This document shows positions 938-23,188 of a stretch of 28,154 nt of DNA, piece after piece. Both the position numbers and the translations under genes were made by a program. Source of the DNA: a virus; the IMG/VR virus record IMGVR_UViG_3300021976_000061, positions 1 through 28,154 of that record; one strand, 5' to 3'. The notes under the pieces are model-generated. The model did no database searches and was not told where the DNA came from. It was given only the letters and a program-made list of their open reading frames with translations. Position 1 is the stretch's first letter. Each line of letters begins with the position of its first letter.

Positions 938-1263
938 ACCCAATCACGGAACCAGAATTCCGCCGGGCGCTCGAATACTACCGCGCGCGATTGACCGAAT
1001 TGCGCGCGGAGCGGGACAGCGCCGAGGCCGAGCGGGACGCAATGCGTGCGACGTTCGACGCCGCGTGCGCCGAGCGTGACGCCGCGTACCATAATGCTAT
1101 GCAAGTCGTCGCGGAAATGTGCGCGGAGCGCGACGCCGCGCGCGCGGAGCGCAACGACGCCGAGCGAGACACCGCCCGCGCCGAGCGAAACGCCGCCCGC
1201 GCCGAGCGAGAGCTCGACGCCTCGCACCGGCCATGGTGGGCACGCGCGTGGTTTGACCGGTGA
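934..1263 (+). CDS. Second coiled-coil protein with a Trp-rich C-terminal tail
   Basis: I chose ATG 934 (109 residues) because it overlaps the previous stop as ATGA and begins the repeat-rich segment; the frame is open further upstream, but that part is Arg-rich shadow sequence. The protein is mostly AERxxAR heptads, with the densest run near residues 66-96. It ends in a short aromatic basic tail with PWWARAW. The stop overlaps the terminase GTG start as GTGA. It resembles the preceding coiled-coil protein, so tandem duplication is likely. The function is unknown. The Trp-rich end could be a docking or membrane-contact peptide, which is inference only. Confidence 0.7.
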   Translation: MNPITEPEFRRALEYYRARLTELRAERDSAEAERDAMRATFDAACAERDAAYHNAMQVVAEMCAERDAARAERNDAERDTARAERNAARAERELDASHRPWWARAWFDR

Positions 1264-2738
1264 CGTCACCAGCCTCCGAATTCATCACGCGATGCGACGA
1301 GCAGACCCTCACCGAAGTGCTCGCCCGCTGCTCCGTCGTCCAGCTCGCCGCGCTCCGGTATGACTGGGCGGATTGGTGGGCGCGTCCAAAGCAGAGGATC
1401 CCCGACGGACCGTGGCGTAGCTATGGATTCCTGACCGGGCGCGGGTTCGGCAAGACGCGGACCATTAGCGAGTGGGTCCAACAGGAAGTATTCGCCGGGC
1501 GCGCGGAGCGAATCGCACTCATAGCGCAGAACGAGGACAAGACAATCGAGGTGATGATAGAGGGGGAGTCCGGTCTGCTCGCCACGTCCCCCCCATGGTT
1601 CAAGGCGCGCTATGAATCGGGGCGCGTCCTATGGCCGAACGGCGCGCAGGCTTTCGTGTACACCCCATTCGAGCCGCAAAACGTCCACGGGCCGGAGCAT
1701 CACCTTGCATGGTGCTCCGAAATCGCGCGCTGGCCGGCCGCCACGCGCGATGAAGCGATGGCGGACCTCCGGCGCGGTCTGCGCCTGGGATACGGCAAGC
1801 TCATATGGGATACCACGCCGCGGCGTCGCAACCCGCTGGTGCGCAAGCTCCTTGAGCGCGCCGCGAGCAACCCCACGCGGCATGTCGTCGTCCGCGGCTC
1901 GATGCGTGAGAACGAGGCGAATCTCACCCCGGAATTCGTCCAGGAGCAGATCGACGAATACGGTGGGACGCAACAAGGCGCCGAGCAGATCGACGGCGTA
2001 TTTCTGGACGACTCCGCCGGCGCTCTCTTCCGGCAGGCCTGGATCGACGCCGCCCGCCGGTCCGCGCCCGGGTCCTTCCGCCTGCGCATCCTATCCGTTG
2101 ACCCCGCGATCTCCACGCGCCGGGGGACGGACCGGACCGGCATCGTCGATCTGGGCCAAGGGGACGACGAGCAGATCTACGTGCTGGGGGACATGTCCGG
2201 CAAGCACGCGCCGGAGGAATGGGCGCGGGTCGTGCTCGACGCGTACGGTCGAAATGAATGCAACGCCGTAATCGTCGAGCGCAACCGCGGCGGAGACCTC
2301 GTGGCCAGCAACCTCCGCGCGCAGGCGCAGGCCCGCGGCTGGCGCGTCATCGTGCTCGACCTGCGCGCGAGGCTGTCCCCGTACCGCGCCGGGATCGTGT
2401 ACGTGAAGGAAGTCCACACCAGCCGCACGAAGGAAACGCGCGCCGAGCCGGTAGCGGGCCTGTATGAGCGCGGGCGCGTGTCGCACGCGCACGGCGCGGA
2501 CCTGCGCGCGCTCGAAGACACGCTCACGACGTGGGAGCCCACCCCGACGGCCGAAAGCCCCGACGCGCTAGACGCGCTGGTGCACGGTGTCTACGAACTC
2601 GCGGGCCTGCGTGACGATCGGCCGGATGCTCGCGCCGGATTCAAGGGGATCACGGACGCGGCGAAGAGCCTGACGAGAGCCTCGTCGGCGGACCTGTCGG
2701 CGGCGCTATCCGGGTTGCGGCGGACGTCAACCCTTTGA
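1260..2738 (+). CDS. Terminase large subunit (DNA-packaging ATPase and nuclease)
   Basis: This motor cuts concatemeric phage DNA and pumps it into the prohead. The N-terminal ATPase has a Walker A loop GRGFGKTR at about residues 60-67 and a Walker B-like strand ending HHLAWCSE with Glu154. The RNase H-like nuclease follows, with candidate metal ligands Asp281 (SVDPA), Glu340 (VIVER) and an Asp near 434-438 (PDALDAL). The length of 492 residues is normal for the family. The usual Walker B Asp before the catalytic Glu is Ser153 here. GTG 1260 overlaps the upstream stop. The gene meets the portal gene tail to tail, with a 12-bp overlap of their 3-prime ends. Confidence 0.93.
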   Translation: MTSPASEFITRCDEQTLTEVLARCSVVQLAALRYDWADWWARPKQRIPDGPWRSYGFLTGRGFGKTRTISEWVQQEVFAGRAERIALIAQNEDKTIEVMIEGESGLLATSPPWFKARYESGRVLWPNGAQAFVYTPFEPQNVHGPEHHLAWCSEIARWPAATRDEAMADLRRGLRLGYGKLIWDTTPRRRNPLVRKLLERAASNPTRHVVVRGSMRENEANLTPEFVQEQIDEYGGTQQGAEQIDGVFLDDSAGALFRQAWIDAARRSAPGSFRLRILSVDPAISTRRGTDRTGIVDLGQGDDEQIYVLGDMSGKHAPEEWARVVLDAYGRNECNAVIVERNRGGDLVASNLRAQAQARGWRVIVLDLRARLSPYRAGIVYVKEVHTSRTKETRAEPVAGLYERGRVSHAHGADLRALEDTLTTWEPTPTAESPDALDALVHGVYELAGLRDDRPDARAGFKGITDAAKSLTRASSADLSAALSGLRRTSTL

Positions 2739-5024
2739 TGCCTTCGCGGCAGCCTTGCGCCGCGCGCGCCAGTAAGATTGGCGCTTTAGTGCACGTTTAT
2801 ATTCGTCCGCGTAATCACGTTCGCGCGCGGCTGCGCGTTCTGCGGTGTCTACAAGTGCGTCGTATTCGCGTTCATCCCCGCCTTTTGCCTTGTCTCTGCG
2901 TTCTCTTGCGGCGGCGGTGAGCGCAGCGGCTTCGCGCATCGGTTTGGCTGATTTCTCTGCGTCCTCGCCCGCAGTCTCCTCGAGCTTGCGCATGGCACCG
3001 TCGCGTTGGCTCTCATCCATTGCTAGAACGGCGGCGGTATCCCTATGCAGGTTTGCGTCGACGCGAGCGTTCGCGCCTTCCCATTTGGCATTGGCTGCTG
3101 TAGATTCCGCAGCTTCGGCTCGATGCGCAAGGCGATCGTATTGTGCGTCTGTTTTCTCGGCCGTGATTTGCGCCCGGTCAAATTGCTTGGAATCGTATCC
3201 GTACTCCTGCTCGATTGCTTCGAGATCTGCTTGTGACTTGTCCGCGTTTGCTTTGGCTTCGTCGCGTTGCGCACCTAACGCGTCCGCCTTGGGTTGCATT
3301 TGTGCGTGCTTCGCTTCGTGCTTCGACGCCAGTGCGTCCGCCTTGGTGTGCGCCGCCAGCGCCGCCTTCCGATCATTCGTGGGGCCGTCCGATTCGTCCT
3401 CGGGTTCGTCCTCGTCATCGTCGGAATCGTCAGACGAACCCCCGCCACCGTCGTCGAATTGTCCGGTGCCTGGATCGTGCTTGTCGTTGACCCACTTCGC
3501 CACGGAGGCCCGCACGGCGGGCGCGAGCGCGGGCGCGGCGACACCGGCCGCCTTCTTCGCGCTGTATTCCTCCACGGTCAGGCGCCCGTCGGGATCGGGC
3601 GCGCCGGTGACGAGCAGCACCGGTCCGAGGCCGGCGCTCGCGCGCGCCTCGTTCACCGAAACCACGCGCGCAATGTCCGTCGGCGCGAGCGCGATGGACG
3701 GCGCCGACTTGCCTGTTTCCTCGAGGCTCGGAGCGTCGACGCCGAACGCCCCCGCAAGCGCGGCGATTGCCGGCTGGTCGACGACGAAACCGAGCTCTCG
3801 ACTTTCCTTGACCGCCCGATGAAAGTCGTCCGTTCTCTTGGCCAGCGAAGCTCGGCGCGCGTCCTCGTCCGCGTCGGGGATCAGATAGTCGCGGTGAGGC
3901 GCGAGCGTCGAATCCCCGAAGTTGACCGCGGCCCACACTTCGATTGTTCCGGTCAGGATCCCCCGCTCGAGGCAACGCAGGTCGGACTCGACGATATCGT
4001 TCCGCACGCCAAACAGCGCCGTCGCGTCGACGCCCGGCGCGGAACCATTGCTGCCGAGCGTGGCATCCTGGCCAAGGTAGATACGGGACGCGGCGCGGTC
4101 GCTGCCGTCAACGATTTCCTTGAAAATCTGCCACGCCTGCGACGTGTTCGTAATGTAATCGAGCGTCGCCCCGAAAGGCTTGATCCCCACCGGCGCGTCA
4201 ACGGACGCAATGATTTTCAGGAGCTCGAGGTACGCGCGCCCCTCGTCGGAATCGATCGGGATGCCGTCTGGCAAGGTCCCGACAACTTTCGCGTTTCCGT
4301 GCGTCGTCCCGGCCCGACCGCGGTCTCTGGTGCCGAGCGCGTGATCCGCCCATACCAGGGCAGCCGGCAGCACCGCGGCGTCGTGTTTCCACGGCGCGTG
4401 CGCGTGCTTGCGGAACACACTCCAGCGGCCGTCTCCGTGGACGATCGGGACCTCCCCCGTAATCCCCCCCGTACGGTCGAACTCCGAACCGGAGCCGTCG
4501 TCCACGCGCGTCAGGAGCATGCGCGCCTGCGCGTCCCATCGGCACCATTCCAGCGGCCAGTGACGGAGCTCGAAGTCCACCCGAGAGCCATCCTCGCGCG
4601 GCGTCGCCACGTTGTATCCGATCGCGATGCCATGGTTTACCAGCTCGCCATGGATGGCGCCGATCTGGTCGGGATGCGCGCCGATACCTCGGGGCCCGTA
4701 AAGTGCGTCCGCCTCGTCCCGAATGCGAAGGGCGCGCGCCGTGTCGTTCGCCGGGGTGAGCCGGACCGGGAGCCCGCGCTGCGGTGCCAGCCGATTCAGG
4801 TATGCGACGAACAGCGCGGAGTCCGTGCGCATGGATTCCGCCAGACGGACCGGCATGCGAAAGCGGCCTAGGAGCTGCGCGTCCCGCGCGGAGCGAATCG
4901 CCTCGAGCGTCCAGGCGTACGCACCCGAGTTCTCTTTCGGCGCGAGCAATTCGGCCGCCAATCGCAGGGTGTCAAACTCCCCTGCGTGTCGGACCTTGCG
5001 CGCGCGATGCGATTTACCGGCCAT
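2727..5024 (-). CDS. Portal protein (Mu gp29/DUF935-like) with a C-terminal coiled-coil extension
   Basis: The portal ring is the DNA gate of the capsid and the docking site for terminase. Residues 1 to about 509 look like the Mu gp29/DUF935 portal family: an N-terminal region ending in a helical motif, a segment with ASRIYLGQDATLGSNGSA, and a C-terminal SVNEARASAGLGPV motif. A DPGTGQF motif and a Gly/Ser/Asp/Glu linker follow at about 510-551. The last 214 residues or so are Ala/Lys/Glu-rich helix that the family does not need. The gene keeps the expected position between terminase and protease but lies on the opposite strand. It starts 23 bp from the sigma-like gene, reading away from it. 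Bases 2730-3400 have visibly lower GC than the neighbours (28 of 60 in the row at 3181). Confidence 0.83.
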   Translation of the reverse strand: MAGKSHRARKVRHAGEFDTLRLAAELLAPKENSGAYAWTLEAIRSARDAQLLGRFRMPVRLAESMRTDSALFVAYLNRLAPQRGLPVRLTPANDTARALRIRDEADALYGPRGIGAHPDQIGAIHGELVNHGIAIGYNVATPREDGSRVDFELRHWPLEWCRWDAQARMLLTRVDDGSGSEFDRTGGITGEVPIVHGDGRWSVFRKHAHAPWKHDAAVLPAALVWADHALGTRDRGRAGTTHGNAKVVGTLPDGIPIDSDEGRAYLELLKIIASVDAPVGIKPFGATLDYITNTSQAWQIFKEIVDGSDRAASRIYLGQDATLGSNGSAPGVDATALFGVRNDIVESDLRCLERGILTGTIEVWAAVNFGDSTLAPHRDYLIPDADEDARRASLAKRTDDFHRAVKESRELGFVVDQPAIAALAGAFGVDAPSLEETGKSAPSIALAPTDIARVVSVNEARASAGLGPVLLVTGAPDPDGRLTVEEYSAKKAAGVAAPALAPAVRASVAKWVNDKHDPGTGQFDDGGGGSSDDSDDDEDEPEDESDGPTNDRKAALAAHTKADALASKHEAKHAQMQPKADALGAQRDEAKANADKSQADLEAIEQEYGYDSKQFDRAQITAEKTDAQYDRLAHRAEAAESTAANAKWEGANARVDANLHRDTAAVLAMDESQRDGAMRKLEETAGEDAEKSAKPMREAAALTAAARERRDKAKGGDEREYDALVDTAERAAARERDYADEYKRALKRQSYWRARRKAAAKASKG

Positions 5025-5047
5025 TTGGTGCTTTCCCGGAAACCCTA

Positions 5048-5545
5048 ATGACGAAAGAGGAAGAGTCCGCGCTGGTGCTCGCGGCGCAGGCCGGAGATAG
5101 GGCGGCGGTCAATAAGCTGTTGCTCGCGTTCCGGCCGCTCGTCATATCGCTCGCGCGAAAATCCGCCGAGGGGACGGACCTGGACGATGCAATCCAAGAG
5201 GGGACGATCGGGCTGCTCCACGCGATCCAGTCTTGCGATCTCGCGAAGGGCGCGCTGCACACGCACGCGCGCATTCGAATTCGCGAGGCGATCCAGCGCT
5301 GGCGCCGACAATACGGGCGCATGTTCGAAACGCTCCCCGACGAGCCCGCGCATTCGCACGCGCCGCGAGACCAGAACGACGACGCGGGGGAATACGTCCC
5401 ACCGGAGCTCCGGTCCGAACCGACGCAGGAGGTAGCCTGCGCGGCGTCGCGCCTGACCGCGCGCGAGCGCGCCGCCATTGCGTGGGACGATATGCCGGAA
5501 CGGACTGCGGAACGCATACGTGCGAGCGTGCGAGGCAAGCTCTAG
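5048..5545 (+). CDS. Small sigma-70-like factor, candidate late regulator
   Basis: The 165-residue product matches sigma-70 region 2. Residues about 28-90 include LARKSAEGTDLDDAIQEG, then GLLHAI and a basic helix IRIREAIQRWRRQYG, equal to regions 2.2 to 2.4 that bind core RNA polymerase and the -10 element. The C-terminal half is short; LTARERAAIAW near 137 may be a remnant of region 4. A minimal sigma of this kind is known in phages, T4 gp55 being the classic case. ATG 5048 is the first start fitting the domain, although the frame is open upstream into the antisense of the portal gene. The stop codon lies inside the left arm of a nested palindrome before the capsid operon, so control of late genes is likely but inferred. 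Confidence 0.85.
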   Translation: MTKEEESALVLAAQAGDRAAVNKLLLAFRPLVISLARKSAEGTDLDDAIQEGTIGLLHAIQSCDLAKGALHTHARIRIREAIQRWRRQYGRMFETLPDEPAHSHAPRDQNDDAGEYVPPELRSEPTQEVACAASRLTARERAAIAWDDMPERTAERIRASVRGKL

Positions 5546-5620
5546 TTACTAAGTAGGCGCGGCGGGCGAATTTCCGACACGTGTCGAAAAACCATAGGCT
5601 GATCCTACTTAGGCACTAGA
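5541..5620. promoter_or_regulatory. 80-bp nested palindrome between sigma gene and capsid operon
   Basis: The left arm 5541-5557 and the right arm 5604-5620 match in reverse complement at 15 of 17 positions. Both are centred at 5580.5. At the same centre lies a perfect 12-bp palindrome CGACACGTGTCG (5575-5586), extending to 5571-5590 with one mismatched pair. The left arm contains the sigma stop codon TAG. The right arm contains an AGG (5611-5613) that could be the ribosome site for the next gene, and the first base of its ATG. It could be a dimer-binding operator, a terminator or attenuator, or an RNA hairpin that hides the ribosome site. The dyad is seen directly; the role is inferred. Confidence 0.8.
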
Positions 5621-6795
5621 TGCCCAAGCTCGTTCGCGGAACCTGCGCGGCGCGCGTGCTGCCCGAAGCGGCCGGCGCGTTGCCCGTCGCGTTCTGTCTC
5701 TTTCGCGCCGGTTGGAACCGGACGGAGAACGGGGACGCGCTCTTCGACGCGGCGGCCGCGGCCGCCGTGATGGCTGCATATCAGCGGCATGGCGTCGATC
5801 GAATGATCGACCTCGAACATTTGTCGCTCGAGGACCCTGCGAAGTCTTCCAACTACGACCCTGACGCGCGGGGTTGGTTTCGGCTCGAGCTCCGCGCCGA
5901 CGGGTCGCTTTGGGCCGTCGACGTGCGATGGACGGACGACGGCGCCGCTCGGCTCAACGCGAAACGACAGCGTTACATCTCGCCTGCATTCCTATTCGAC
6001 GGCGACACGCGGCGCATTACCAGGCTCCTAAACGTCGCGATTACGGCGCTGCCGGCGACACACGGAACGGCGGCGCTAATGGCCGCGAGTATCGGCTACG
6101 GGGACGACTTGCCAATGTCAAAGGAATTGCTCGCAGTCCTCGGTTTGGAGGAAGGCGCCACGCTCGAGGACGTCATCGCGTCAATCGGCGCGCTCAAGTC
6201 CAAGCTCGACGCCGCTCTAGGCACGCCTCCGGCGGAGCCTCCGCCCGCGGAGCTCCCTCCGCTCCCTCCGCTCGAGGCCGACGGCGGACCGCCGGCTCCG
6301 CCCGCGGAGGACGAGGATGAGGATGAGGATGAGGACGAGCAAGCCGCGGCGAGTCTCCTGCGCCTGACCGCGCGCCCGACGTTGGCGGAGGCCGCGCGGG
6401 ACATCGCCGCATGGCGGGCGTCTCACGTCGCGCTCGAGGCGGACCGCGCGCGGCTCGCCAAGGAGCGCGCGACCCTCGAGGCTGGCGAGCGCCGGTCCCT
6501 CGTGGCGTCGCTCGTCAGGCTGGGGGTCGAGCTCCCGGCGACCGCATGGGAGGACGACCGCGCGCAGCGCCCCGTCCCGCGGCTCGCGTCGGAGCCGATC
6601 GCGGAGCTCCGCGCCCGCGTGGCCAAGCACACGGCCGCACGCACCGGAACCGCGCCCGCAACGCCGGCGCAGCCGACGACGGACGCGCACGGGCTGACCG
6701 AGCGGCAGCTCCGAATCTGCCGGGAGACCGGTTGCAAACCCGAGGATTTCGCCGCGCTGGCAAAGCGCCGCGGCGCCGTGGCTCGCGTGGACTGA
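5620..6795 (+). CDS. Head maturation protease and scaffold (Mu gpI-like)
   Basis: The 391-residue protein resembles the Mu I family, which combines a prohead protease with a scaffold. The N-terminal domain shows IDLEH (63-67), DARGWF (82-87), the VRWTDDG strand (102-108), RYISPAF (118-124) and ITALPATHG (143-151). A Pro-rich linker and a run of Glu-Asp repeats (about 228-240, encoded by GAGGAT units near 6309-6340) follow. A helical C-terminal part then resembles a scaffold. In Mu the C-terminal part is also made separately as gpZ; ATG 6115 (residue 166) is a possible equivalent start. It sits before the decoration and capsid genes as in Mu-like phages. Its ribosome site overlaps the right arm of the upstream palindrome. 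Confidence 0.88.
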   Translation: MPKLVRGTCAARVLPEAAGALPVAFCLFRAGWNRTENGDALFDAAAAAAVMAAYQRHGVDRMIDLEHLSLEDPAKSSNYDPDARGWFRLELRADGSLWAVDVRWTDDGAARLNAKRQRYISPAFLFDGDTRRITRLLNVAITALPATHGTAALMAASIGYGDDLPMSKELLAVLGLEEGATLEDVIASIGALKSKLDAALGTPPAEPPPAELPPLPPLEADGGPPAPPAEDEDEDEDEDEQAAASLLRLTARPTLAEAARDIAAWRASHVALEADRARLAKERATLEAGERRSLVASLVRLGVELPATAWEDDRAQRPVPRLASEPIAELRARVAKHTAARTGTAPATPAQPTTDAHGLTERQLRICRETGCKPEDFAALAKRRGAVARVD

Positions 6796-6801
6796 AACGA
6801 A

Positions 6802-7245
6802 ATGGCAAACACGACCCGCAATCTCATTCGCAGGCCGGTCGGGCGCGAGGGCTATCAAATGCACCTCCCGGTCGACGGTGGGGCACATATCTACGAGGGA
6901 TCCCTCGTCGCGCAGTTGACGGCGACGGGCATGCTCGTTCCCGCGTCGACGGCCGGGAGCGGTCCAGCAATCGGCGTCGCGTGCCACGAAGTGGACGCCA
7001 GCGCGGCCGCGGACGGCGACAAGCGATGCATGATCGAGACCGACCGCGTTTTCATCTTCCCCAATGGTCTGACGACCGACGCGTTCTCGGAGGCGAGCAT
7101 GATCGGCGCTGATGTCTTCGTCGGCGATGACCATACCGCCTTCGACAACGATGGCGGGGCGACCCTGCAAAAGGCGGGAATTTTCATGGGCATGGACCCC
7201 GAAGGCGTCCGCGTCCTCGTCTCGCCGAAGACGGCGCAATACTGA
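6802..7245 (+). CDS. Capsid decoration (cement) protein, DUF2190-like
   Basis: A 147-residue beta-rich protein between the protease/scaffold and the major capsid gene. This is the usual place for the small DUF2190-like cement protein that stabilises expanded heads. Gly/Ala-rich strands such as VPASTAGSGPAIGVA and the C-terminal GIFMGMDPEGVRVLVSP segment fit a beta-tulip fold. There is no membrane segment or enzyme motif. The gap to the upstream stop is six bases, and 22 bases separate it from the capsid start. Family assignment rests on context and general sequence style, so it is less certain than for its neighbours. Confidence 0.7.
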   Translation: MANTTRNLIRRPVGREGYQMHLPVDGGAHIYEGSLVAQLTATGMLVPASTAGSGPAIGVACHEVDASAAADGDKRCMIETDRVFIFPNGLTTDAFSEASMIGADVFVGDDHTAFDNDGGATLQKAGIFMGMDPEGVRVLVSPKTAQY

Positions 7246-7267: not shown

Positions 7268-8233
7268 ATGGCAACCATTAAGGTAACCGACCAGCTTCCG
7301 ACGAACTCTGCGGATGCGATGCGGGAGTTCGATGATCGCTATCTGGCGGTCTATGGCATCGCCCAACCGCCGGGGTGGGCGGACGACATCGGCGATCTAA
7401 TCGAAACCGCGTCCCCCGACGTGACGTTTCCGATCGGTCTGCTCTCCACGAAGTACCAGGAGTTCTCCGGCGAAAACCGGGCAAAGACCCTGCAAGAGAA
7501 GGACATTCGCGTCAAGGTCGCAGAGTACGACGCTGGCTATGAGGCCCGGCTAATCGATCTGACGACGAACGTTTTCGCCTATCAGAAGTGGCAACAGATC
7601 CCGGCGCGCTTCCTCGCGGCCGAGCAGCGCCATCGCAACGCGCAGGTTGCGGCGATGCTCGAGGCCGGGACGGTCGGCAACTCCGCAATCGACGGCGTTC
7701 CGTTTTTCAACGCGTCGCATCCCGCCAATCCGGCGGAAGGTACGGACGTTTTCAGCAACTATCAGGCGTCCACGAAGGATGTCGTTTCGCTCGTCAATAT
7801 CGAGGCGGAAGCCACGATCATGATGGGGGTCCTGGACGAGAACGGACAGAAGCTCGGGATCCAGCCCGACACCATTCTCGTCCCGACGGGGAAGTTCCTG
7901 GCACTCACGAATCTCTTGAAGCAGGACATCGTTGCGAGCACAGCCGGAACGGCGACGGTGCGCAACCCCTTCCTTGGGGTTTTCAATGTCGTGCACGTCC
8001 CCGAACTCACGGACGTCAACGATTGGTACCTGGTCGATTCGAAGGCGTTGTCCCAGGGGTTGACCCCGTGGGGCATGCTCCGATACCAGCCGGCCGCGTC
8101 GCTCGGCCTGCGCCATTGGGACGAGGACTCGGACTTTTTCAAGAACACCGGGAAAATCAAGGTGTCCTCGCACATCTGGTATGGGTTCGCCCTGCTCTTC
8201 CCGCACGCAATCCGCCTCGTCAAGGGCGCGTGA
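7268..8233 (+). CDS. Major capsid protein (Mu gpT-like)
   Basis: The 321-residue length and pattern fit the Mu T major head subunit, which has the HK97 fold. The N-terminal part carries FPIGLLSTKYQEFSGENR, then KTLQEKDIRVKVAEYDAGYEARLID, equal to the family block before the long spine helix AEQRHRNAQVAAMLEAG. It is followed by the DGVPFFNASHP motif typical of gpT, where newly formed capsid lattice loops occur. The later VPTGKFLALTNLLK and C-terminal WYGFALLFPHAI segments also fit. Many copies would form the icosahedral shell after gpI processing. ATG 7268 gives a complete family N-terminus. Confidence 0.9.
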   Translation: MATIKVTDQLPTNSADAMREFDDRYLAVYGIAQPPGWADDIGDLIETASPDVTFPIGLLSTKYQEFSGENRAKTLQEKDIRVKVAEYDAGYEARLIDLTTNVFAYQKWQQIPARFLAAEQRHRNAQVAAMLEAGTVGNSAIDGVPFFNASHPANPAEGTDVFSNYQASTKDVVSLVNIEAEATIMMGVLDENGQKLGIQPDTILVPTGKFLALTNLLKQDIVASTAGTATVRNPFLGVFNVVHVPELTDVNDWYLVDSKALSQGLTPWGMLRYQPAASLGLRHWDEDSDFFKNTGKIKVSSHIWYGFALLFPHAIRLVKGA

Positions 8234-8236
8234 TTC

Positions 8237-8497
8237 GTGACGACTAAGGGGATCGAATCAGCGGTCGACTCCAAGGATTACGCCGACCCCGCGGCGGATC
8301 TGAGTCTGATCGCGGAGCGCGGGCTTCCGAGCCGGCGCATTCGACCGCTCACGTCCGGAAACCTCGTCGTGACCCTCGTCGGAACGAAAGCGGGGGACGC
8401 GCCGCGGACGTTGGCGGTAACCGCCAACGTGGACGAGGATATCCAAGTCACGACCGTACACGCCGCGACGAACATCCTCTTTCGCGTCTATTGGTGA
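8237..8497 (+). CDS. Small unknown head-associated protein
   Basis: An 86-residue protein starting at GTG 8237, three bases after the capsid stop, and ending three bases before the next start. It is mostly polar N-terminally and beta-strand-like in its second half, with VVTLVGTKAG and a Val/Thr-rich stretch. There is no recognisable motif, signal peptide or membrane segment. The position between major capsid and the gp36-like adaptor suggests a head accessory or minor decoration protein. The function is not known. Confidence 0.6.
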   Translation: MTTKGIESAVDSKDYADPAADLSLIAERGLPSRRIRPLTSGNLVVTLVGTKAGDAPRTLAVTANVDEDIQVTTVHAATNILFRVYW

Positions 8498-8500
8498 CCC

Positions 8501-9139
8501 GTGGCGGTCTCCTACGCCACGCGCGCGGACTTGTACCGCTACGGACTCCCGCGCGGTCTGCTGTCCAACCCTGGTCGGCTGGCCGCAACGGTGTCCACGA
8601 TCGGTGACACGTTCGAACTCGAGGATCACGGGTTCGAGAGCGGCGCGGAGGTACAGCTCCGCGCCGAGGCGGGCGGCGCGCTCCCTGCGCCGCTAGTCGG
8701 CGGCACGATCTACTACGTGCTCCGGGTGAGCGATTCGCTCTTTCGGCTCGCCGAAACGCTCGGCGGCGCGGTCATCGACTTGACGTCGGAAGGGGGCTCG
8801 ATCGTCGTCGCGGCGTCGCTCGAACCGACGATTGATGCGGAGCTCGAACGGTGCTCGCGGCTGTTCGACACGTACCTACCGGCGCACGCGGTCCCCTTAG
8901 TCGCGCCGTTTCCCGCGTTCGTCTCGGCCTGCGTGGCCAAGCTCGCGGCCGCGGCGCTCCTCGAAATCACCGGCCAGTCCTCCGCGCTCGTCCAGGCGAG
9001 CGCGGAGCAGACCCGGAAGGAAATGGCGCGGCTTGCCGGGGGTATCAACCTCCGGGATCCAGCGGCAACGTCGGCAAGCAATTGCGCGATCGGCTGGTAT
9101 CCCGCGGCCGATAGAGGTGGACCGGACACCGTACCTTGA
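8501..9139 (+). CDS. Head-tail adaptor (Mu gp36/DUF1320-like) with an inserted beta domain
   Basis: The N-terminal YATRADLYRYGLP and the later segment from about residue 108 (IDAELERCSRLFDTYL, then PAFVSACVAKLAAAALLEI) match the two halves of the Mu gp36/DUF1320 connector family, which links portal and tail. Between them, residues about 28-104 form a separate module: DTFELEDHGFESGAEV, then TIYYVLRVSDSLFRLAET and GGAVIDLTSEGG. I recognise this pattern as a beta module common in phage structural proteins. It makes this protein, at 212 residues, longer than typical gp36. GTG 8501 is the start, and the stop overlaps the next TTG start as TTGA. Confidence 0.72.
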   Translation: MAVSYATRADLYRYGLPRGLLSNPGRLAATVSTIGDTFELEDHGFESGAEVQLRAEAGGALPAPLVGGTIYYVLRVSDSLFRLAETLGGAVIDLTSEGGSIVVAASLEPTIDAELERCSRLFDTYLPAHAVPLVAPFPAFVSACVAKLAAAALLEITGQSSALVQASAEQTRKEMARLAGGINLRDPAATSASNCAIGWYPAADRGGPDTVP

Positions 9140-9534
9140 TCCGTGGTGACTTCTCGCGGCTGTCCAAAATCAAGGCGTCGCTTCGGGCGATGCCAACCGT
9201 CCTCGCGCAGCGCGTGGCGGCGCGCATCGCGCCCGTGATCACGGACCTCGCTCGGGGGACCTACGGCGGGCAACGGAACGTGTACGGGGACGCGTGGCGA
9301 GAGCGCGTCGACGGAAGCGATGCAACCCTCGTCGCAACCGGCGCGCTCAAGAGCAAGGTCAAGTTCGCGGCGGTCGGGACGTTGATCCGGGTCGTGCTCG
9401 GGACGAGGTACGCCAAATACCAGATCGGTATGCGGCGCATTCTGCCCGCCCCGTCCGCGCCGCTCCCGACCGAATGGTCAGCACGAATTGAGCGCGAGGC
9501 GCAGGACGAGATTCGAAAGGAACTCAAGTCGTGA
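9136..9534 (+). CDS. Virion morphogenesis protein (Mu gpG / HK97 gp10-like)
   Basis: A 132-residue basic protein with the short motifs typical of the phage virion morphogenesis or tail completion family: YGDAWRERVDG near residue 50, LVATGALKSKVKF near 65-77, and a VLGTRYAKYQ strand. Such proteins complete the head-tail junction. TTG 9136 overlaps the preceding stop (TTGA), and no in-frame ATG or GTG lies nearby, so TTG is accepted. The stop overlaps the next GTG as GTGA. The gene lies between adaptor and terminator genes as expected for this family. Confidence 0.72.
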   Translation: MIRGDFSRLSKIKASLRAMPTVLAQRVAARIAPVITDLARGTYGGQRNVYGDAWRERVDGSDATLVATGALKSKVKFAAVGTLIRVVLGTRYAKYQIGMRRILPAPSAPLPTEWSARIEREAQDEIRKELKS

Positions 9535-10100
9535 TTTACGAAATCACGAAGGAGCTACGCGCGGCATTGAAGTCGCGCGGCGTCCCTTTTCCCGTCCTGT
9601 ACGGGCCGGAGCGCACGCAGTCGGCCGCCATGGTCGCCGAGCGGATAGTGATCCAGCGCGCCGAGGACTCAACGGGGCCCGCGCGGTCCGTCCACCGCAA
9701 TCCCAAGCTCCGCGGCGTCCGCCTGCAAGGCGTGATGATCCGCATCTATGCGCGGTCCGGACTCGCGGGCGCGGCCGTGCACGATCATGAGCGGCGCGCC
9801 GAGGCGGTCCTTGACCGGGTGCAGGCGGTCCTATCATTGATCGCGGCCGGACGCCGCAATGCACTCGAATGGGGCGCCGGTAAATTCCTACTGCCGGAAG
9901 ACCTCGAGGCGTCCGAGACCTGGCCGGGCGCGGTCTACGAATTGGCGTGCTCGATCGAGCGCGGGATTTTCGACACTGATTGGCAGGGCGAGGCACAGCC
10001 CGAGGCGCCCCTCGGCGGCGTCAAGAATCGAACGGACGTGACGGCGGCGGGCGCGCCCGAGGGCGGACCGGTAGTTACGGCATGCGGAGCAGCGAGCTAA
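9531..10100 (+). CDS. Probable tail terminator protein
   Basis: A 189-residue protein in the slot of the tail terminator or Mu gp37-like protein, immediately before the sheath gene. The N-terminal helix (MIYEITKELRAALKSRG), then PFPVLYGPE and the later LRGVRLQGVMIRIYARS strand, followed by a helix with HERRAEAVLDRV, fit the alpha/beta terminator fold. The C-terminal 40 residues are low in complexity. GTG 9531 overlaps the preceding stop. The family call is based on gene order plus the helix-strand pattern rather than a strong motif. Confidence 0.55.
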   Translation: MIYEITKELRAALKSRGVPFPVLYGPERTQSAAMVAERIVIQRAEDSTGPARSVHRNPKLRGVRLQGVMIRIYARSGLAGAAVHDHERRAEAVLDRVQAVLSLIAAGRRNALEWGAGKFLLPEDLEASETWPGAVYELACSIERGIFDTDWQGEAQPEAPLGGVKNRTDVTAAGAPEGGPVVTACGAAS

Positions 10101-22147: not shown

Positions 22148-23188
22148 ATGGGAATCGTCCTAGCCTCGGCGCCCGCGCCCGCGTCGGATTGCTCCGCGCC
22201 CCGACTGCTCCTGCCCGCTCATCTGTACGCGGTCGTCAATGAGCCGTCCGAGATCTGGCGCGACAACGTAGCGCTTCGGGACGGATACTGCGCGCAGTCC
22301 TGCCGCGTGCTTGACGGCCCGGCTGCGCTCCGGGTGTACGACCACCTCGAGGATCGCTGGCGCGTTTTCCCGACGACGGCCGGCAACTACACCCTCGAGG
22401 TAGGGGCGGGCGGTCAGACGAAAACGGCGACGCTGCACGTCGCACCCGCACTGCCCGCCGAGGCGCCGGTCAAGCGCGTCGCGCCCGTCGGGGACTCCAT
22501 CACCGCGGCGGTAGGTGACGGCGGATACGTGCGTCACCTGTCGACCGCGCTCGGCGCACGGATGGTGTTGCTCGGAACGCAAACCAATAACACATATAAG
22601 AGCGAGGGGTTTCCGGGCTCGCAGTGGCAACGCTTCGCTACGCAATTCGGGAACGTCCCCGAAGCGGGCGTCCCGAATTCCCCGTTCTGTACGGCGACGA
22701 GCACGATCAACATTCCCGCGTGGCGGACCGCGGTCGGTGCCGATCCGGACCTCGTAACGTGGTCACTCGGGACGAACGACATTTACCCGACGGACCTCGC
22801 GGCCGTCACGGCGAAGTCCGTCGCGTCGTTCGCTTACGCGGAGGCGTTGATCTCCGCATTCAAGGCGGCGCTTCCGTCGGCCCGTCACCTGCTCGTTCCG
22901 TGCTGGCCGGGCAACGCCAACGCCGGCGCGTGGGCGGGCGGAGCGGCCCCTGCGTTGACGTATCGGCAGAAGGCCCACCTATGGGCGGAGCTCCTCGAGG
23001 CTCGTTTCGCGTCCCGCGAAGCGGAGGGTATCTACCACCTCGGCGGTTCGTTCCTACAGATCGATCGGGCCCGTGGTTATCCGTCGAATAATGACATCCA
23101 CCCCGACGTCAACGCGGGTCACGTCACGCTCGCGCGCACGCTGCGTCATTGGATGACGTGGCAATGGGTCTTCGGGTTTTGGGCATGA
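22148..23188 (+). CDS. Tail-associated SGNH/GDSL hydrolase
   Basis: Residues 1 to about 105 form a beta-sandwich-like domain that could anchor the enzyme on the fibre. The hydrolase follows: block I VGDSI with Ser117, block II near FPGSQW (154-160), block III GTND with Asn210, and block V NDIHPD with His318. The SGNH family removes acyl groups from polysaccharides or lipids, so the likely job is modifying cell-surface glycans during adsorption. In block V the usual DxxH reads NDIH, with Asp two residues before His rather than three. The stop overlaps the next ATG as ATGA. Confidence 0.8.
   Translation: MGIVLASAPAPASDCSAPRLLLPAHLYAVVNEPSEIWRDNVALRDGYCAQSCRVLDGPAALRVYDHLEDRWRVFPTTAGNYTLEVGAGGQTKTATLHVAPALPAEAPVKRVAPVGDSITAAVGDGGYVRHLSTALGARMVLLGTQTNNTYKSEGFPGSQWQRFATQFGNVPEAGVPNSPFCTATSTINIPAWRTAVGADPDLVTWSLGTNDIYPTDLAAVTAKSVASFAYAEALISAFKAALPSARHLLVPCWPGNANAGAWAGGAAPALTYRQKAHLWAELLEARFASREAEGIYHLGGSFLQIDRARGYPSNNDIHPDVNAGHVTLARTLRHWMTWQWVFGFWA

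Follow-up and report, generated by a model that had tools for sequence, protein, structure and literature searches.

Head gene layouts of Mu-like phages and P2

Few features of tailed phages are as conserved as the order and strand of their head genes, on which tools for annotation and module detection rely. The head genes of Mu and B3 all point in one direction. The clusters of Mu, B3, JBD30, Mx4 and Riverbug resemble the locus described here in encoding a terminase, a Mu-type portal, a Mu-like protease, a decoration protein and a gpT-like capsid protein in the same order, and its closest sequenced portals are those of Myxococcus phage Mx4 and Thermus phage Riverbug; these two phages differ from it in having all of these head genes in one direction. 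Head and tail modules of the Mu-like prophages of Leptospira are reported to be always in the same orientation (PMC8705779).

Divergent transcription of a portal gene is already known, from P2 (Peduovirus, NC_001895), in which, as in the clade described below, the portal gene (Q) runs leftward, divergently from the O-N-M-L head operon. In the P2 annotation, 111 bp separate the starts of the leftward P/Q and rightward O operons, and this interval includes one activator site. P2 differs from the clade in that the terminase ATPase gene (P) is part of the leftward operon, nearer to the promoter, whereas the locus described here and most of its relatives have a rightward terminase gene and a portal gene that is inverted alone, and in that the proteins of the clade are of Mu type.

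Gene map of the window

The stretch of DNA that was analysed, hereafter the window, comes from IMG/VR; it is a linear viral fragment of 28 kb and of metagenomic origin. A sequence-only reading had placed the portal gene alone on the minus strand between plus-strand neighbours, overlapping the terminase gene by 12 bp and starting 23 bp from a sigma-like gene; its coordinates and strands are correct and both distances are exact. Since the terminase gene lies outside the leftward unit, the window does not have the P2-type layout. The features of the region are as follows, with the overlap and the head-to-head gap read directly from the sequence.

1260-2738, plus strand: large terminase subunit, closing the upstream rightward unit (Pfam Terminase_6N 9.6e-17, Terminase_6C 2.5e-12)
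2727-2738: tail-to-tail overlap of the terminase and portal genes, 12 bp, with both stop codons within it
2727-5024, minus strand: Mu-type portal gene, inverted relative to the terminase gene and the head operon, 765 aa (Portal_Mu 1.7e-18)
2733-3374, minus strand: portal C-terminus, aa 551-764, a coiled-coil extension (AlphaFold helices 551-764)
5025-5047: head-to-head gap between the start codons of the portal and sigma genes, 23 bp
5048-5545, plus strand: gene of a sigma-70 region 2 protein (Sigma70_r2 1.6e-10)
5546-5619: intergenic stretch preceding the protease gene, 74 bp, with a nested dyad; candidate control site
5620-6795, plus strand: Mu-like head maturation protease/scaffold, opening the rightward head operon (Mu-like_Pro 4.1e-33)
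6802-7245, plus strand: head decoration protein (phrog_1731 3.5e-23)
7268-8233, plus strand: major capsid protein (Mu-like_gpT and Phage_capsid_4, each 1.7e-8)

The terminase is 47-50% identical to those of the family. Upstream of it (434-1263) are two orfs consisting mostly of repeats of the AERDAARAERD type, predicted to form coiled coils and matching no Pfam family; their products could be rapidly evolving proteins of the small terminase or scaffold-like kind. The tail region (22148-23188) encodes a GDSL-type lipase/acylhydrolase (PF13472, 8.8e-10), possibly a surface-modifying tail enzyme.

Identity of the portal protein

The minus-strand orf had been called a portal gene, and several lines of evidence bear this out. 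Residues 60-393 match PF06074 Portal_Mu with an E-value of 1.7e-18 and 67.5 bits (curated cut-off 23.9), and the portals of the family align to the protein at 40-57% identity. When an AlphaFold model built from 24 sequences (the window portal and its relatives) was compared with the PDB by Foldseek, the best matches were the connector chain of JBD30 (E 1.8e-11) and entries for the Mu neck (2.3e-10). The neighbouring terminase, protease and capsid genes are those expected beside Mu-type portals. The identity to family portals and the structural match to Mu-type portals establish that the orf at 2727-5024 is a real coding gene for a Mu-type portal.

Beyond the portal core, which is all that most family portals cover, a Gly/Asp-rich linker (HDPxxGxF-GGGG) leads into a long, charged C-terminal extension. 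A similar extension is present in the portal of L009 (6001-8121, 3′ part) and absent from the other portals examined; in the window protein, Portal_Mu was the only Pfam match and no PHROG matched the extension. In four co-directional relatives (L006, L012, L015, L018), the C-terminus of the portal is a short domain resembling GKWCVYSEGGKKLGEYxTKAEAEKRLRQIEY, and the N-terminus of the L112 protease opens with a stretch resembling this domain.

Distribution of the inverted portal

Searches of GTDB and viral contigs with the window portal as a single protein returned nothing; relatives of the portal were reached with profiles made from terminase-linked relatives. Contigs were gathered with terminase, portal and capsid profiles, and the strand of each gene was recorded by profile searches. 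A clade portal is present in 41 distinct contigs, the window included, which make up the clade set. Among 50,697 phage records, none was identified as a sequenced isolate of this clade.

The sequence-only reading had treated the inverted portal as a peculiarity of this locus and had proposed that related prophages be searched for the same orientation. The search found the layout in at least 26 other contigs, and the inverted portal turned out to be not a peculiarity but the commonest state in the clade. The exact arrangement of the window (type A: rightward terminase, leftward portal, rightward protease and capsid) occurs in 22 of the 41 contigs. In five more the portal is opposed to the protease and capsid but the contig does not reach the terminase, bringing the contigs with an inverted portal to 27 of 41, two contigs from metagenome-assembled genomes (MAGs) among them. 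Type C is P2-like, with terminase and portal both leftward and the protease rightward, and comprises five contigs (L119, L172, L174, L176, L178), the only relatives with a leftward terminase. Altogether the portal diverges from the protease and major capsid genes in 32 of 41 contigs, i.e. the window and 31 of its 40 relatives. Type B, in which all genes are co-directional, comprises eight contigs, although the capsid gene lies beyond the available stretch in L015 and L018, as does the protease gene in L018. L110, in which the contig lacks the terminase gene and the protease is poorly matched, is probably co-directional too.

Two contigs deserve mention for their binning or condition. L022, a phage contig of the clade, was assigned to the MAG of a Thermoplasmata archaeon; this is probably a binning error, since the other named host is a myxobacterium. 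In the prophage of a Polyangiaceae MAG (L021), which points to myxobacteria as hosts, the terminase (8386-9878) and the protease (5424-5948) are each split over two reading frames; therefore, this prophage may be decaying or may carry sequencing errors.

A misassembled or misbinned portal segment might be suspected in a linear metagenomic viral fragment such as the window, but the chance of this is negligible: the same inverted portal is present in 21 other independently assembled contigs with all markers and in five with some of them, including the two MAG contigs and three type A records from different samples (L127, L128, L129) that are identical over 6,409 bp spanning the whole region, and the gene ends at both junctions in the window are intact. 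The assembly error that had been raised as an alternative is thereby ruled out.

Phylogeny and direction of change

The portal tree shows type A as paraphyletic, with all eight type B members united in a single nested clade (99/89), a pattern which indicates that the layout is inherited. The type C members fall within one supported clade of six together with a type A member, L173. Type B and type C are each a single clade in the terminase tree as well. Three changes are required on the portal tree for the orientation of the portal relative to the head operon, and five for the three-state layout. A single change of orientation, with the inverted members on one side of a branch, was rejected by the AU test (p 1.7e-4), which was run on an earlier tree of 35 rows for a group named after the data had been seen.

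The tree was rooted with an outgroup of distant co-directional Mu-like portals; because the outgroup branch is long, the root and the direction of change are less sure than the number of changes. With this root, the simplest account of the sequences would be one basal inversion, making the inverted portal ancestral in the clade, followed by a flip of the terminase that would have given rise to the P2-like type C and a reversion that would have given rise to type B; L110 is perhaps a second reversion. The inverted portal is thus an old inherited arrangement of one uncultured lineage of tailed phages.

An alternative is that the portal segment is a phase-variable element flipped by a recombinase, as the differing orientations among relatives would allow. 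The sequence-only reading had seen no inverted repeat at both edges of the portal gene, and this was essentially right: the best inverted pair across the edges in the window is a weak one of 17 nt (2756-2772 and 5072-5088, 88%; p about 0.02 versus shuffles), and no consistent pair emerged among the 16 clade members tested. Pfam scans of the window orfs revealed no site-specific recombinase or invertase. As neither an invertase among these orfs nor an edge repeat common to the relatives was found, and as orientation follows the portal tree and is the same in the three identical independent records, an invertible segment is exceedingly improbable.

The terminase-portal junction

The junction between the terminase and portal genes varies across the clade from an overlap of 119 bp to about 2.2 kb of inserted sequence, with 0.2-2.2 kb in several members. 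Overlaps of about 100-119 bp occur in one sub-clade, the terminases of which are on a separate branch. The terminases of L102, L103, L108, L111, L127, L152, L155 and L158 belong to a different branch from that of the window, although their portals are near neighbours; it seems, therefore, that terminases have been swapped next to a junction of portal and head operon that stayed stable.

The junction appears to accommodate cargo genes. In L021, an FRG-domain gene (PF08867, 5e-17; 7384-8358, minus strand) lies within it. In L106, leftward orfs extend from the portal to the terminase (2876-4701, minus strand) and include a matrixin-like metalloprotease (PF00413, 1.5e-8), so that the portal may be the first gene of an extended operon running leftward. 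In L096, the start of a 660-aa leftward gene (2743-4725, minus strand) adjoins the portal stop; this gene has no Pfam match at E 0.01.

Convergent antisense effects on the terminase, another proposal of the sequence-only reading, would require portal and terminase transcripts to collide or pair so as to limit the amounts of either. The overlaps of the one sub-clade and of the window would suit such control, as would the outcome of a scan for terminator-like sites at 2500-2950 of the window, which gave nothing clearly beyond chance. However, the junction is not conserved, ranging as it does from overlap to kilobases of insertion, and the sub-clade with the long overlaps is the one with terminases from a separate branch. 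Antisense control is therefore unsupported and is considered very unlikely.

The portal-protease gap and control signals

A minus-strand gene that has no minus-strand gene upstream of it needs a promoter of its own; for this promoter, most members offer no non-coding place other than the gap between the portal and protease genes. Every inverted member keeps a gap between the two starts, with a median of 138 bp and a range of 29 to 595 bp; because protease starts were picked automatically, gap sizes follow predicted starts and are approximate. Among the co-directional members measured, the portal and protease genes overlap in four of eight, and the gaps in the other four are 29, 438, 891 and 2211 bp. 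These observations lend support to the suggestion, made from the window alone, that the portal is likely to need separate promoter control.

Conservation within the gap was judged against the fourfold sites of the flanking genes, which are about 30-60% identical between most pairs and near saturation in many. By this standard, conservation of the whole gap is modest, and it is discounted because short gapped alignments inflate identity; what stands out is a single element of 25-26 nt in eight related members, of the type CCANTG[GT]-N7/8-AA-N-TTGC, which all eight carry at a distance of 30-33 bp from the start of the portal gene. Read rightward, the element could be a promoter with a -35-like TGG and an extended -10 TGC, and it could serve the rightward side only; no leftward portal promoter was identified in the gap. 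A reading of the element as a sigma-54 promoter was ruled out by its GG-GC spacing of 16-17 rather than 10. Scans for a sigma-70-type promoter in the gap of the window and in L108 gave nothing clearly beyond chance.

The gap of the window contains a nested dyad (5541-5620), in which CTAAGTAGG (5549-5557) and CCTACTTAG (5604-5612) surround the palindrome CGACACGTGTCG (5575-5586). Its p-value versus shuffles is 0.015, and that of a dyad at the matching place in L009, the sister of the window in the portal tree, is 0.007; in L009 a similar nested palindrome precedes the protease gene after an insertion of its own. Across the clade, the combined p-value of gap dyads is 0.03, versus 0.07 in co-directional controls. 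An operator dyad in the gap of every inverted member seemed plausible by eye, but the clade-wide shuffle test gave it no clear support. There was likewise no support for a recurrent presence of regulatory genes in the gap, the only Pfam matches being sub-threshold HTH-like ones in L153 and L154. No match to an Ogr-type zinc-finger activator was found among the Pfam-scanned orfs of the window, itself a fragment.

The usual gap is replaced in the window by the sigma gene and the 74-bp stretch at 5546-5619, so that the portal start is 595 bp from that of the protease and 23 bp from that of the sigma gene. The rightward sigma gene encodes a small protein with sigma-70 region 2 and a short region-4-like tail. 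No homologue is encoded by the clade relatives in the contig stretches searched, and from this comparison the gene appears to be an insertion in the gap that is peculiar to this member. Because 23 bp leave no room for separate promoters, and because the sigma gene is inserted in the gap, the portal gene of the window must have its promoter within the sigma gene or beyond it; the likely sites should be within that gene or at 5546-5619.

A model of head gene transcription

The portal is probably a leftward transcription unit of its own, inverted in the common ancestor of the clade and controlled together with the head operon from the gap that they share. The head region would then comprise three units: a rightward one ending in the terminase, the leftward portal, and a rightward operon of protease, decoration, capsid and tail genes. 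Back-to-back promoters in the short gap would start the portal and the head operon, one late control region would fire both, and the terminase, tail to tail with the portal, would be driven separately. By analogy with the one activator site of P2 for P/Q and O/N, shared late control of the portal and the head operon is most likely. It is rather doubtful that the portal is kept separate because its dose or timing must be set independently of those of capsid and terminase.

The arrangement may also be a neutral frozen accident, in which the portal flipped once, gained a usable promoter and was inherited in an orientation without functional value, while the terminase-portal junction merely tolerates insertions and terminase exchange. 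A single origin followed by reversion and flips would fit such a history, as would the existence of co-directional relatives and the varied contents of the junction (12 bp of overlap, overlaps of about 100 bp, the FRG-domain gene of L021, the matrixin-like gene of L106). The lasting promoter-sized gap and the element of eight members suggest instead that control has been maintained, although a non-adaptive origin is still compatible with them; a wholly neutral explanation is a tentative one, somewhat unlikely to be correct.

Significance for phage head organization

Literature searches limited to open-licence texts returned no title or abstract describing a Mu-type clade in which a lone inverted portal is the usual state and reverted and P2-like branches occur. 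Here gene order is constant throughout a single clade, yet terminase and portal occur in three strand arrangements, the history of which can be traced and includes a reversion; the clade thereby bridges the Mu-like and P2-like head layouts. It also provides a natural experiment on whether the dosage of the portal has to be uncoupled from the expression of the capsid. If the portal is indeed a separate unit, the mixture of inverted, P2-like and reverted members would offer a ready-made comparison of transcription architecture with the assembly of one portal per capsid.
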